Below, in pieces: positions 15,573 through 37,610 of a stretch of 59,751 nucleotides of DNA. The translations under genes were made by a program, and so were the position numbers. The notes under the pieces are model-generated. The model was not told the origin of the DNA. It saw only the letters and a list, made by a program, of their open reading frames with translations, and ran no database searches. This stretch comes from Labilibacter sediminis (lineage in GTDB: Bacteria > Bacteroidota > Bacteroidia > Bacteroidales > Marinilabiliaceae): the NCBI RefSeq assembly GCF_005877885.1, contig NZ_VCHY01000028.1, forward strand, positions 1 through 59,751, written 5' to 3'. Position 1 is the first letter of the stretch, and each line of letters starts with the position of its first letter.

Positions 15573-16148
15573 TTAAATGATATTACAAATTTTTAAAAAA
15601 TTCTTAACCATCAACATACCGTCTGCTCCAGATACTTCCGGATGTGATTGAAATCCGTAGATAGGTTTCTCTTTATGTTTTATGATTTCGTAGGTACAAG
15701 TTTCAGATGTTGCCAGGTTTTCAAATTCAGCCGGTAATTCTGCTACATAAAAAGCATGCCGTTTTAGTAGTGAAATTTCTGTTTTATTAAGCCCTTTAAA
15801 GATTGGATCCTCTGGCTTTATAACGGTAATAGTTTCTTTTTTACCGTTGTATTCAGCTAGTTTTTTTATGCGCCCCCGGTAGTTTACCGCAATAATTTCA
15901 TGCCCTAAGCAAAAGCCTAGTACCGGCACATCGAAATTCATTAATGCTACAAAGTTAGATGTGAGATTTAAGGGTTCATATGGATTCCCTTTGCCTCCGG
16001 ATAAGATGATTCCCTTTATCTCAGTTTTGGCTGATAAGGTTATAGGCTGATTATGGTCGAAAAATACATAATCAAAATCCTGCTCTGAAAGAAATTGCCT
16101 CTTGAATTTCTTAATAAAAGCACTTTGGTTATCAATGACTAACAACAT
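15573..16148 (-). CDS. class I glutamine amidotransferase-like protein (GMP synthase GATase type)
   Basis: This 191-residue protein is a stand-alone class I GATase domain resembling GuaA's N-terminal part. It has the catalytic nucleophile Cys in LGFCLGHE and the His-Glu pair in FQSHPEVSG, plus the early ILSGGKGNP glycine strip. Such domains release ammonia from glutamine for a partner enzyme or hydrolyse gamma-glutamyl bonds. No synthetase half is fused. As the first gene of the operon with MscS and an ATP-grasp ligase, it could feed ammonia to, or trim products of, that ligase (inference). Confidence 0.85.
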   Translation of the reverse strand: MLLVIDNQSAFIKKFKRQFLSEQDFDYVFFDHNQPITLSAKTEIKGIILSGGKGNPYEPLNLTSNFVALMNFDVPVLGFCLGHEIIAVNYRGRIKKLAEYNGKKETITVIKPEDPIFKGLNKTEISLLKRHAFYVAELPAEFENLATSETCTYEIIKHKEKPIYGFQSHPEVSGADGMLMVKNFLKICNII

Positions 16149-16548
16149 CTCGCAAAATACACGCCACAGCTAGAATAACAATAAAAATATCGTCTGTAAT
16201 ATACGGCAAAAATAAATACAAAGTGAAGTGCATTTATTAAATGTTAAGGAAATTGTTGACACTTCTATTTCTTGCTAAATAGAGTTAGTTTGTTCATATA
16301 GATATCATATTTTCATAAGCACGCAAGGTGTATAAGTAAGAGCAGGTGACATAGTGTATATCAAGTTTTGGTAGTTCGTGTAAAATTATAATCTGACAGG
16401 TAGGAGTCATGTAATCTGCCACGAGTTCCTACTAAATAATATGTTTCCTTTCCTGTTGTCCTCGTAAAACATTAACCTTCATTTGTATAATTCAAATGGA
16501 GGTTTTTTTATAATCTGAATCGTCCCTAAATAAAGTAAAAAACATTCT
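16149..16548. other. intergenic region with a terminator but no visible gene
   Basis: No open frame of note. It holds a strong plus-strand terminator (16474-16509) with no recognised plus-strand gene before it, and an inverted repeat GTAGGA (16400-16405)/TCCTAC (16427-16432). A small untranslated RNA is possible. Confidence 0.4.
16474..16509 (+). terminator. rho-independent terminator without an obvious upstream gene
   Basis: AACCTTCATTTG (16474-16485) pairs with CAAATGGAGGTT (16493-16504), 11 of 12 Watson-Crick, loop TATAATT, then a T-run to 16509. Confidence 0.75.
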
Positions 16549-16774
16549 GGTAGGCCTATTATATGATCTGGTAGGTTTGGTAACCATGTTGGTAGCTTCT
16601 TCTGCCACATCGGTAGCTTTGATTACCTATTCGGTAGGTTTGCTAACCTATCTGGTAGGTTTATCAACCGCTTCGGTAGGTTCAAAATCCTCTCTGGTAG
16701 ATTTAGTTACCCCTCTGGTAGCTATTTTTACCTCTCTGGTAGCTTCTATAACCAGTCTGGTAGCTTTAAAAACC
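16549..16774. repeat. eleven-unit tandem array with exact 21-bp phasing (GGTAG...ACC)
   Basis: GGTAG starts at 16549, 16570, 16591, 16612, 16633, 16654, 16675, 16696, 16717, 16738 and 16759, always 21 bases apart. Units read roughly GGTAGSTTTnnTnACC plus a 5-base spacer. Ten of eleven have CC at positions 15-16 and eight have ACC, so most units are GGT/ACC inverted repeats. Spacers and middles vary, so selection or copying keeps the ends and the period. Two helical turns per unit place all sites on one DNA face. Confidence 0.9.
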
Positions 16775-17185
16775 AAATATATAAGCCATATAGAGAGGTG
16801 TTTAAAATGTTGAGACTGAATAATTAATGGAGCAGGAGTTTATTGGCAGGGTAGAGGCTGGTAGTTAAGCTGTTTAGTAACTATATTGAAAATATACAAA
16901 GATATTGACAATGTATTTGCAGGTGTTTATATGTTTTAATGTGCTATATCAAATTATATTGGCATAAAAATTAAACATATAAGAGTGTTGTATATCAGTG
17001 AAATGTCTGCTTTGTGTGTTTTATAGGATGGAGTGATGATTTTAAGATAATAAGTAATGAATATTATTGATATATGAAAATAATTAATATTTTTATGGTT
17101 AATATATTCGATAGTATTAGAATATTGTAATGATCATACGATCGAGCGTATTTATTTTATTAATCATCATTTAATCCTAATTAAA
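16775..17185. other. intergenic leader between the phased array and the unknown gene
   Basis: About 410 very AT-rich bases with no convincing gene. A small inverted repeat, ATACG/CGTAT, sits at about 17127-17142. No clear TAnnTTTG promoter was found. Confidence 0.4.
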
Positions 17186-17869
17186 ATGACATCAATTTTT
17201 AATTTTTCCATTCCAGAACTATGTCAAAGAAGCGATAAGCTTATTATTTCGTACAAAAGAGACGAAGAAAACTTTAAAGACTATGGTTACAATGGCGAAA
17301 CCATTGGCAACATAGAAATCCAAACCGAAACCTTAAAACAATTTCCATCGGATGATTATTATGGAGGTCTGCAAAAAAAAGCAACCGACGATAAAAATCA
17401 GTTACGAGCTATTTTAGAAACAAACATCAGTGATTTAAGAAGTAGAGCTAAGTTGGCAATTGGTGCTAAGTCGGTAGATTATAGTTTATTTAAGTTTAGT
17501 AAACTGGCCACCTTAACCGATAATGAGTTGGTACAGTATGCCTTGCATGTGGTAAAAATAGCCCAACCTCGATTAAGAGTGCTTGGCAATCGCATGGTAA
17601 CACAGGAAAGCCTGGATGTCATACTCAGTGATCGTAATAAGTTTGATGATGCCATCGATATACAGGCCTCAGCTATTTCGGATCGTCGCGAAAAAAAGCT
17701 TGAGCGCACACAACTGGCCAATCAATTGTATCAGCAAATTAGTGAGCTTAGCGAAGTAGGTAAACTGATTTGGAAAGATAAGAACGAAGCTTTTTATACT
17801 GATTATGTGATTTATGGTTCAGCAAAAGCCATTGTTGAGCAAGTGGAAGAAATAGAAGAGGAGATCTAA
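17186..17869 (+). CDS. hypothetical protein, mostly helical
   Basis: I do not recognise this 227-residue protein. It has no signal peptide or membrane segment, is rich in charged residues, looks largely alpha-helical, and ends in an acidic tail (EQVEEIEEEI). Several stretches such as AQPRLRVLGNRMVTQESLDVI and SAISDRREKKLERTQLANQL look like packed helices. It is preceded, about 410 bases upstream, by the 21-bp phased array, and followed 20 bases later by the double-hairpin terminator block duplicated near 12.45 kb. It stands alone on the plus strand between minus-strand genes, a setting that fits an accessory gene. Function unknown. Confidence 0.75.
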   Translation: MTSIFNFSIPELCQRSDKLIISYKRDEENFKDYGYNGETIGNIEIQTETLKQFPSDDYYGGLQKKATDDKNQLRAILETNISDLRSRAKLAIGAKSVDYSLFKFSKLATLTDNELVQYALHVVKIAQPRLRVLGNRMVTQESLDVILSDRNKFDDAIDIQASAISDRREKKLERTQLANQLYQQISELSEVGKLIWKDKNEAFYTDYVIYGSAKAIVEQVEEIEEEI

Positions 17870-17873
17870 TAAT

Positions 17874-17998
17874 AAAGAAAACATTGAATAATGCCTGACT
17901 TATTGATTTAAGTTGGGCATTTTATTTTTTTGATAGTTGGTATTTCTACAATAAGACTTAAACAAAAACTCCCGATTACGCCAGTAGTCGGGAGTTTT
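17874..17998. terminator. double-hairpin block (copy 2), bidirectional terminators
   Basis: Hairpin 1 (AATGCC 17890-17895 with GGCATT 17916-17921, inner ACTTA/TAAGT) is followed by a T-rich run and terminates the unknown gene on the plus strand. Hairpin 2 (17965-17975 with 17988-17998, AAAACTCCCGA/TCGGGAGTTTT) is bidirectional and serves the S9 peptidase gene. The block matches 12425-12547. Confidence 0.75.
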
Positions 17999-35729: not shown

Positions 35730-35756
35730 AAGATTATTTTTTCTTTTAAATAGAGA

Positions 35757-37610
35757 TTAATCGTTATCTTCCATCTCTTGTTTTAATTCTTTTTTCAATT
35801 GTTTCATTTCTTTCTTTAGTTGCTTCATTTCTTTTTTAAGCTGATCTTTTTCCGCATCCAGTATCTCTTTCTCTTTGGCGATTTCCAGATGGGCTTTTTT
35901 CATTTCAGCATTTACCATAGAGTCAATATTTAGGTTTTCAAGTTCTTCATCAGCCAGTTTTATAGCTACTTCTGCAGCTTCAAGCGAGTTTTCAACAAGA
36001 ACTTCAATATCTAAATTTTCAAGAACGTCAGCAGCAATTTCAAGCCCGGTTTGTGCAGAGTGTAAAGAAGCGTCTGATATGTCGATATTGATTTTTAGAC
36101 TATCGAGTTTCTCTTTGTTGGCTTCCATATGGTATTTTATAGCCTCTTGAGCTTCCTTTAGTTCAAGCTGAATATCGTATGAAAGCGAATCCATGTCAAT
36201 TTCATTAAAAGCAGCTGAAATTTCTATATCCGCCTCATTTAAAGCTTCATTGGCTTCTTGTAATGATTTTTCAATAACAACGTCAAAGTTGATTTCTTTC
36301 AGGGCAGAATTTATTTCCTCAATAATTTCTACCGATAAAGCGGCATTTTTTTCAGATAAAGCAATTTCCACTGCTTGTTCTATTTCTTTTGAAAGAGGTT
36401 CAATTTCCGCAACTTTTTCGATGTTTTTAGACACTTCCTGAACAATACTGTCGCGATCGACTTTTTTAAGTACTTTTATGGCAGGTGGAGGAGTTGGTGT
36501 ACCTACAGTTGTATTAGTTGTAGTTTTTCCTGTATTTTGAGTATAGTCGGTATTAAATTGGTTTCCCAGAGAAAATGAAACCAAAAATATGCTGCTTATT
36601 ATAATGAAAGCAGCAATAAGTCCTTCTGTTATATTTGTTTTCATAGCTCTTTGTTTTTGTATGCGTTTAATTCTTTCCAGTAAGCTTCCTTTTTTTCTTG
36701 CAAAAGCCATGGATAAATTCTCTTGCTGAAAGCTAAATATATGGGCTTGGGTAAGTGCTTTGGCATAAGTAACCTGGTCGCCGGTTAAGTTAATGGCAAT
36801 GTCATCGCAACTATGCTCTCTTTCAATTCTTATATGTTTAGAAATTGCCCAAACTGCCGGATGATAGAAAAATAATATTTCAATAATAGATTGAATGATA
36901 TTAAAGAGGTAATCGTGTCGTACAATGTGAGCCAGTTCATGGGCAATAATGGCCTCTATCTCTTTTTCAGATAAACCGGAAAATGCCTTTACGGGGAATA
37001 GGATGATTGGTTTTAAATAACCCAATGTTAGAGGAGTTGTGGTATGTGGCGATTTGTAGGCCTTTACTTTGTGTCTAATATTTAAGCGATCTGCAAAAGA
37101 GAGTAGCGTGTTCATCCACTTTTCCTCAAAAGGAAGTAGTTGAAGTCCTCTAAGTCGCCTGTTGTATGCCAGTCCACCTATTAAGCGCACACTAAACAAG
37201 CCAATACCTACCAGCCAAATCGATAAGAATATGGGAAAGTGTCTTTGAAACCAGGCACGCACTCTGACGTTACGAAAGTCTATGGCATTTACAACAGCAT
37301 TGTTAGAGGTTTCCGTTTGGTACGAGGCTGTTTTAAAATAGGATGGATTATTAAGTAAAGTTGTTTTTAAAGTTTGTTTTTCTACTGCATAACCATACGC
37401 CTTAATAAATGTTGAAGCTGACCAGCCCAATAAAACAATCAGTGCGGTAAATGAAATAAAGTATCTTACCTGAGCACTGTATTTATGCAATAGAGCCAGT
37501 AAAATTAGCAAGCTTAATAAAACCACAATACCTTGCCAAATAGCATGTACAATTGTCCAGCCAAGTGCTTCTGTTATTTCCGGAGAAAAAATACTTTGAA
37601 TCGTATTCAT
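35757..37610 (-). CDS. M56-family (BlaR1-type) membrane metallopeptidase with long coiled-coil tail
   Basis: This 617-residue protein has several N-terminal membrane helices and a BlaR1-type peptidase with the zinc motif IIAHELAHIVRHDY (HExxH) and REHSCDDIA. A further helix is near residue 330. BlaR1 homologues sense a signal and cleave the BlaI repressor. Residues from about 385 on form an unusually long, Glu/Lys-rich tail ending in MKQLKKEMKQLKKELKQ, which looks like coiled coil; it replaces the penicillin-sensor domain. It starts three bases after the BlaI gene, so one operon. Confidence 0.9.
   Translation of the reverse strand: MNTIQSIFSPEITEALGWTIVHAIWQGIVVLLSLLILLALLHKYSAQVRYFISFTALIVLLGWSASTFIKAYGYAVEKQTLKTTLLNNPSYFKTASYQTETSNNAVVNAIDFRNVRVRAWFQRHFPIFLSIWLVGIGLFSVRLIGGLAYNRRLRGLQLLPFEEKWMNTLLSFADRLNIRHKVKAYKSPHTTTPLTLGYLKPIILFPVKAFSGLSEKEIEAIIAHELAHIVRHDYLFNIIQSIIEILFFYHPAVWAISKHIRIEREHSCDDIAINLTGDQVTYAKALTQAHIFSFQQENLSMAFARKKGSLLERIKRIQKQRAMKTNITEGLIAAFIIISSIFLVSFSLGNQFNTDYTQNTGKTTTNTTVGTPTPPPAIKVLKKVDRDSIVQEVSKNIEKVAEIEPLSKEIEQAVEIALSEKNAALSVEIIEEINSALKEINFDVVIEKSLQEANEALNEADIEISAAFNEIDMDSLSYDIQLELKEAQEAIKYHMEANKEKLDSLKINIDISDASLHSAQTGLEIAADVLENLDIEVLVENSLEAAEVAIKLADEELENLNIDSMVNAEMKKAHLEIAKEKEILDAEKDQLKKEMKQLKKEMKQLKKELKQEMEDND

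Follow-up and report, generated by a model that had tools for sequence, protein, structure and literature searches.

Iteron and centromere-like arrays are made up of direct repeats that recur at about two helical turns, lie in phase upstream of one gene and carry a repeat sequence specific to each system. Within the Bacteroidota the closest described intergenic array among the literature found, going by the parts of the source available, is BrickBuilt, a minisatellite MITE of Porphyromonas gingivalis with 23-bp units, a leader and tail, and terminal inverted repeats (PMC4596501). No description of a locus made up of a 21-bp array and a gene was found in the literature searched, subscription literature and preprints being outside its scope. 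The locus described here lies on a contig of Labilibacter sediminis, and the whole of the analysed stretch, 59,751 nucleotides in length, is referred to as the window. An array of 21-bp units is followed by a gene, and because this pairing recurs in many relatives with different repeats it appears to be an undescribed two-part system and not a chance repeat.

The array is situated in a 1-kb intergenic region between two divergent genes, that of a class-I glutamine amidotransferase (15573-16148, minus strand) and the plus-strand gene with which the array is paired (Table 1). An earlier note on this DNA had described GGTAG as recurring every 21 bases without a phase slip, and it is found at the same place in 11/11 units between 16549 and 16779; the CC that was said to stand at a fixed place occupies unit positions 15-16 in ten of the eleven, and the form GGT-N10-ACC, ascribed to most units, is complete in 8/11. 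The picture of an in-phase array, with a step of two helical turns, upstream of an uncharacterised gene is borne out. The mean pairwise identity of the units is 0.62, or 0.50 outside GGTAG, and TRF also assigns the array a period of 21. No Rfam family reached its gathering score anywhere in the window. Terminator-like sites are concentrated in this region, with five between 16140 and 18030 compared with 1.0 (sd 0.9) in shuffled sequences. The hairpin at 16474-16504 lies 45 bp 5' of the array on the plus strand with no plus-strand gene recognised before it, and a small RNA may lie upstream. When the spacer was compared with the region upstream of a 77%-identical paralog, no match exceeded 31 bases (E 0.08 or higher), except for 54 bp where the gene begins. 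Periodicity of 21 bp is also visible at 35739-35891 of the window, at the C-terminal end of a 617-aa minus-strand open frame, where it is presumably coding.

Table 1. Positions of the array, the linked gene and the neighbouring features in the window.
Feature	Position	Strand	Description
Terminator-like hairpin (intrinsic type), strong	16474..16504	+	12 pairs, T-rich tail; immediately before the array
Array of eleven 21-bp units	16549..16779	+	GGTAG-N8-[AGT]CC-N5; no phase slip; 10/10 core-to-core distances are multiples of 21
Non-coding spacer between array and gene, 406 bp	16780..17185	.	No plus-strand terminator-like site inside
Gene for a 227-aa acidic protein, pI 5.0	17186..17869	+	Alignment A2; distant relationship to NCBIfam PQLLE (NF052641)
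Terminator-like hairpin directly 3' of the gene	17890..17921	+	13 pairs, then a T tail

The same 77%-identical paralog (C1:428390) has a 21-bp array of its own at a similar distance but with a different unit (CTAGATGG...), and the array of a relative in the same genus is built from a third unit type (TTGGG...). Across the order, an upstream array with a period of 21 (or 42) was found at 31/47 distinct loci for which 600 bp or more of upstream sequence was available, counted among the matches listed (up to 30 per search), and was not detected at the other 16. By comparison, two other gene families, sampled in genomes of the genus, had arrays in 0/50 of their flanks (Fisher 7e-14), these flanks omitting the locus that holds the window array (L249). 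Among consecutive tiles of 1.5 kb taken from two genomes of this genus, 1/512 had an array (Fisher 6e-38); contig G045:C29 was truncated in this set at 170 kb, ahead of a known array, and without the truncation the count is 2/532. The same threshold being reached by so few tiles, the window array is not a chance occurrence. The least favourable control, 15/239 tiles, was drawn from contigs of G035 and G070 that had been chosen for holding GGTAG arrays, and even against this the order loci stand out (Fisher 9e-19). Leaving aside the window and the two loci of the initial discovery gives 28/44 (Fisher 1e-34 against the tiles), and in a sample of the phylum reaching other classes 14/24 loci carried an array (Fisher 1e-9 in comparison with the 15/239 tiles). 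The association between array and gene is thus strong and far beyond chance even against the less favourable controls. With 15/30 loci of the PQLLE family discussed below added to the order and phylum counts, the idea in the earlier note that the same gene family might follow such arrays elsewhere holds well.

Several details define these counts. The 47 loci are 48 rows, 32 with an array, less one duplicate with an array (L321 equals L286). Four loci with less than 600 bp upstream (L305, L308, L316 and L326) lie outside the count, L294 was replaced by a longer copy (L334), and L335, with 561 bp upstream and an array z of 5.9, is outside the list. Runs of N in L311 from the order and in L341 and L353 from the phylum sample led to these being scored as having no array. 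At 31 linked loci besides that of the window, the profile match of the gene lies between 106 and 708 bp from the array end, with a median of 319. Within the flanks examined, no other neighbouring gene is common to as many as three of 29 loci, the larger clusters of neighbours being the gene itself and frames within the arrays. The linked gene is absent within the flanks of five glutamine amidotransferase (GATase) loci of relatives, at 80% identity or above, where synteny is too short to define an insertion.

The statistics on the arrays themselves come from 35 gene-linked arrays, of which 33 have at least six units and 30 at least seven (L243, L329, L314, L317 and L327 being dropped); two of the 30, L095 and L041, are linked to remote homologs of the gene. 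Each array has approximately 4-16 direct 21-bp units. The mean identity between positions is 0.58, 0.61, 0.57 and 0.56 at lags of 21, 42, 63 and 84, compared with 0.28 at lags of 20 and 22, and in the 30 arrays 250/261 core steps are exact multiples of 21. Calling arrays by lag 21 or 42 favours those that are in phase, though the core scan itself is free of phase. The units within an array are far from identical, with a median identity of 0.64 and a range of 0.45-0.80. Two alternating unit types, visible as a 42-bp step, are seen in L041, L303, L306 and L324; such an alternation is not claimed for the window because the 42-bp score covers a longer stretch. A weaker signal at 10.5 bp is present in the power of CT (z 4.2), A (3.2) and T (2.3) and in the identity at lags of 10 and 11 (z 2.5), with none for G, C or AT. 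On the strand of the gene, the pyrimidine fraction is 0.58 over 34 arrays, their flanks having 0.52 and 0.50.

A degenerate core, approximately CTTnnGTA followed by a T-rich run, is common to the 30 arrays, scoring 1.45 compared with 1.07 (sd 0.035) in dinucleotide shuffles. Arrays held out in turn matched the common core with a median p of 0.10, and 39% of 90 such tests fell below 0.05. With orientation left free, the polarity relative to the gene was the same in 26/30 arrays. The core and the polarity are confined to the family of the window gene within the order. In 14 of the 15 PQLLE arrays (L378 omitted) the core reached p<0.05 in 0/14, and the polarity was the same in 3/14 and opposite in 11/14; in 13 of the 14 phylum arrays from other classes (L354 omitted) the corresponding figures were 1/13, 2/13 and 11/13. 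Common descent of the arrays could be an alternative source of the common core. An inverted unit lies just beyond one end of the array in 8/30 cases (z of at least 4.0), the window not being among them. Similarity between arrays was not significantly correlated with similarity between the linked proteins (Mantel rho 0.12, p 0.12, n=15), and the closest pair of paralogs, 76-77% identical, have quite different array units.

Neither the 227-aa protein nor its family matched any Pfam entry, toxin or other, above the cut-off, and the window protein had no match to a DNA-binding family. No relatives of the family were found among the sequences of the PDB, plasmids (72,556 records), phages or viral contigs, and a single-sequence structure model of the window protein had a pLDDT of 39 and was unusable. 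PADLOC gave no match for three of four proteins and, for the fourth, a weak match to a 2TM effector (E 0.0022). By profile search, the gene family is present in 18/71 genomes of the GTDB family, 24/295 of the order and 15/395 of the phylum. The family is linked to NF052641, 'PQLLE family protein', which 13/20 members match with E of 0.01 or lower, the best at 1.3e-8. The window protein scores 17.5 bits (E 0.0026), below the curated cut-off of 80 bits, and no member of its family was shown above that cut-off, so that on profile scores the two families are related only distantly. PQLLE genes are present in 49/71 genomes of the GTDB family and, among the matches listed, 15/30 of their loci have a 21-bp array upstream. 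Since PQLLE genes also carry arrays, the array belongs to a wider superfamily. The literature searched, within the same scope as above, contained no mention of "PQLLE". In a second genome of the genus, G045, the linked gene is present as fragments only, its C-terminal part being found in three places (L244, L246 and L248), and the genome keeps three GGTAG arrays. An open frame resembling a tyrosine recombinase, named by eye, lies beside one family member (L270:673-1377, minus strand).

GGTAG, which the earlier note proposed to look for in related genomes, is not what is conserved, most of the gene-linked arrays displayed having other units. In the genomes of the GTDB family the periodic GGTAG pattern matched 9/71, while the same pattern read backwards matched 31/71, mostly once or twice each, and the same layout with GAGTG or GTAGG matched 7/71 and 14/71, respectively. 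The last two are unclean controls, as GTAGG overlaps GGTAG and most of the GAGTG matches in G070 are its GGTAG arrays. Because the pattern itself imposed both motif and period, this search is no proof that GGTAG is conserved. A genome-wide scan for GGTAG gave at least 117 stretches from many phyla, which were not counted, many being microsatellites or lying inside long open frames. When sampled contigs of four genomes were instead scanned for any short period, many intergenic period-21 arrays with unrelated units were found, together with periods of 22, 23 and 14. Period 7/14 arrays (L072 in G000:C1, L092 in G035:C110 and L115 in G045:C29) represent another frequent short period in these genomes. 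A period-23 intergenic array at G035:C277:69161-69553 (L081) has the unit GACTGGTAGTGAGTGTCACACTC, in which GGTAG is followed by a palindrome in a REP-like manner, and a 22-bp array at G035:C110:7116-7271 (L087) is composed of AGATGCGCATCT-like palindromes. Two 21-bp GGTAG arrays made of GGTAGCTTCTGAGCTAACCGC and GGTAGGTTCTGAACTAACCAC, units that closely resemble that of the window array, are found in a metagenome-assembled genome labelled as another phylum (Treponema MAG Pcl387_bin137; L215 and L220), and profile search found no gene of the window family at these loci. Contig G070:C277 is identical to JAITVO010000233.1, from a MAG labelled Cytophagaceae bacterium TD116_bin49.

Arrays of the window type also occur on their own. 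The genome of L. sediminis has two further GGTAG arrays, at C45:33691-33839 and C34:831-1021, that are 79% and 73% identical to the window array over the matched part, and neither adjoins a gene of the family. All three share the ending GGTAGCTyTAAAAACCAAAT, their flanking genes are unrelated and homology ends approximately 20 bp past the array. The three GGTAG arrays of G045 keep a common order of units among one another and have a similar tail at the end. Block-wise duplication of whole arrays has therefore taken place. Among 23 non-coding period-21 arrays, from stretches mostly picked for their arrays, three are followed by a gene of the family or a remote homolog of it and one has such a gene on the other side; for the remaining 19 the family profile, in a search that did not take in PQLLE, recognised no adjoining gene. 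G000, G035 and G070 contain gene-less arrays of the same unit type as a gene-linked array. In G070 the 21-bp array of a remote homolog follows the gene, at a distance of 52 bp, instead of preceding it (L097:547-1263 in C349). A solitary array may serve the protein as an additional site, or be left over from a gene since lost or from earlier mobility.

The explanation that we consider best, with a probability of roughly 0.5, is that the array forms the cis part of a two-part locus and acts as a helically phased, iteron-like platform of double-stranded DNA for the linked protein. Such a locus would be laid out as exact 21-bp units, a spacer of 0.1-0.7 kb and a gene of the 17186-17869 family, each unit being one putative binding site repeated every two helical turns. 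By analogy with iteron- and centromere-binding proteins, the linked protein, as such or as an oligomer, would cooperatively occupy one face of the helix, and the nucleoprotein patch so formed would probably regulate the gene itself and mark the chromosome, with the gene-less arrays on C34 and C45 as additional sites for that protein. A step held at 21 bp while the sequence varies freely, together with the 10.5-bp signal, fits double-stranded DNA that is read in helical phase and, as the earlier note had proposed, we infer that a filament or a regulator binds at the array. The direct observations behind the platform are the association with the gene, a period that stays fixed while the unit sequence is free, the lack of general coding and, in the gene family within the order, the core and its polarity. 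Against it we count the acidic character of the protein and its lack of a match to a DNA-binding family, the failure of the core and polarity in PQLLE and the other classes, the arrays without a recognised gene (19/23), the loci without a detected array (16/47) and the lack of a significant correlation between array and protein similarity.

Among the alternatives, it is unlikely, if still to be taken seriously, that the array is transcribed and its repeat RNA binds the linked protein or holds it in check, in the manner of type III antitoxin RNAs. This would suit an array that lies upstream of one gene, repeats that are private to every paralog and the consistent strand asymmetry within the window gene family, and the window array does fold well (z -4.4 against dinucleotide shuffles, -2.55 by column permutation). 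However, the string of RNA hairpins suggested in the earlier note fails as a general explanation, as 33 arrays fold not clearly better than their column-permuted versions (mean z -0.38 for one strand and -0.43 for the other) and only two of the 33 fall below -2. An RNA would have no need of a strict 21-bp phase or a 10.5-bp signal, the interval between array and gene in the window lacks a plus-strand terminator-like site, PQLLE arrays tend to the opposite polarity and no toxin in Pfam was matched above the cut-off. Somewhat less probable again is a relationship like that of RAYT transposases and REPs, in which the gene mobilises the array, or did so in the past, the linked array being the home copy and the solitary arrays non-autonomous. 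The window-type arrays at unrelated sites on C34 and C45 could be read in this way, as could the resemblance of C110:73148 in G035 to C277:102584, and of C75, C277 and C349 in G070 to C227, a remote gene homolog following the array at both C277:102584 and C227; the kept unit order of the G045 copies and the recurrence of GTAG-like cores are in the same vein. The linked protein is, however, not a Y1 transposase, GTAG is not general, the homology between the copies in the L. sediminis genome stops approximately 20 bp past the array, and a non-systematic look saw neither terminal repeats nor target duplications. The RAYT/REP idea was rejected for the L. sediminis genome, where none of six Y1_Tnp loci has GGTAG or a 21-bp array in the flanks examined.

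That the array is a neutral intergenic minisatellite lying near the gene by chance seems to us improbable. Some of the genomes are rich in intergenic arrays with many types of unit, as the 15/239 tiles of the chosen contigs illustrate, most arrays are without a window-family gene and BrickBuilt is a described precedent, on the part of PMC4596501 available; nevertheless an association so far beyond chance strongly disfavours this explanation, as do the near absence of phase changes in spite of a median unit divergence of 36% and the conserved core columns and polarity. Least credible of all is that the arrays code for heptad-repeat peptides, 21 bp being seven codons. Some frames are open and hydrophilic, a reverse-strand frame in G045 being an example; the window array has one open forward frame, with 78 aa counted from an internal TTG, and there are 1.61 open frames per array compared with 1.14 in column permutations. 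Against this, the frame with fewest stops was unusual relative to its own permutations in 0/33 arrays, the lowest fraction being 0.31, and the best antisense frame of the window array has two stops. As a general explanation heptad coding, and with it the seven-residue repeat of the earlier note, is refuted by stops in all six frames of nine of the 33 linked arrays (L286, L329, L278, L300, L301, L303, L314, L322 and L325).

Extending the platform reading beyond the window family is more tentative, and we would put it at somewhat less than an even chance. PQLLE and the window family might together form a superfamily that represents an undescribed, phylum-wide class of element, many of its genes having a private upstream 21-bp satellite, its proteins acting as a phase-reading polymer and the solitary arrays serving as chromosomal addresses. 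As the unit sequence turns over freely and the period is invariant, the proteins may polymerise on the DNA with a repeat of two turns and read phase more than sequence. If this is true, bacteria would have a counterpart to satellite DNA and the protein bound to it. In a phylum as well sequenced as this one, a two-part locus that recurs offers a first mechanistic handle on a superfamily without known function, and a period that never varies, combined with free sequence, is a signature by which the reading of DNA phase by a protein can be tested directly. The linked locus also accounts for some intergenic 21-bp minisatellites, though not for most of those in the sampled contigs.

Set beside the described systems, the locus shares features with several of them. 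Units that abut and diverge in a graded way set it apart from CRISPR, with its identical repeats and unique spacers. Type III toxin-antitoxin systems (ToxIN, CptIN), from the parts of the sources available, likewise have short repeats in tandem ahead of a single protein gene, from which the present arrays differ in their period of exactly 21 bp, their many units and the lack of a general RNA fold; the linked protein is also not recognisable as a ToxN-type endoribonuclease, having no Pfam match above the cut-off. GTAG-tagged REPs and their RAYTs, going by the parts of PMC3733652 and PMC6006769 available, are similar in having a GTAG-like tag, dispersed repeats and one linked gene. Unlike in these, the linked protein here has no match to PF01797, the six PF01797 matches of the L. 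sediminis genome have no 21-bp array in their flanks, the 33 arrays show no general palindromic hairpin and GTAG occurs in only some arrays. With BrickBuilt the array has in common intergenic head-to-tail repeats without spacers, units of about 20 bp and several dispersed copies in a member of the Bacteroidota (PMC4596501, in the part available), the three copies in the L. sediminis genome lying at unrelated intergenic sites. The window unit is, however, 21 bp, the BrickBuilt terminal repeat was not found near the window array, and the available part of PMC4596501 reports no linked gene family. The PQLLE genes of NF052641 resemble the window gene in carrying 21-bp arrays and differ in the tendency of these to the opposite polarity. 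From iteron and centromere systems the locus is distinguished by 21-bp arrays that are multi-copy in genomes, by a spacer of 0.1-0.7 kb and by a linked protein with no match to a Rep or Par family in Pfam and none among plasmids; what it has in common with iterons are direct repeats, held in constant helical phase, upstream of a gene.
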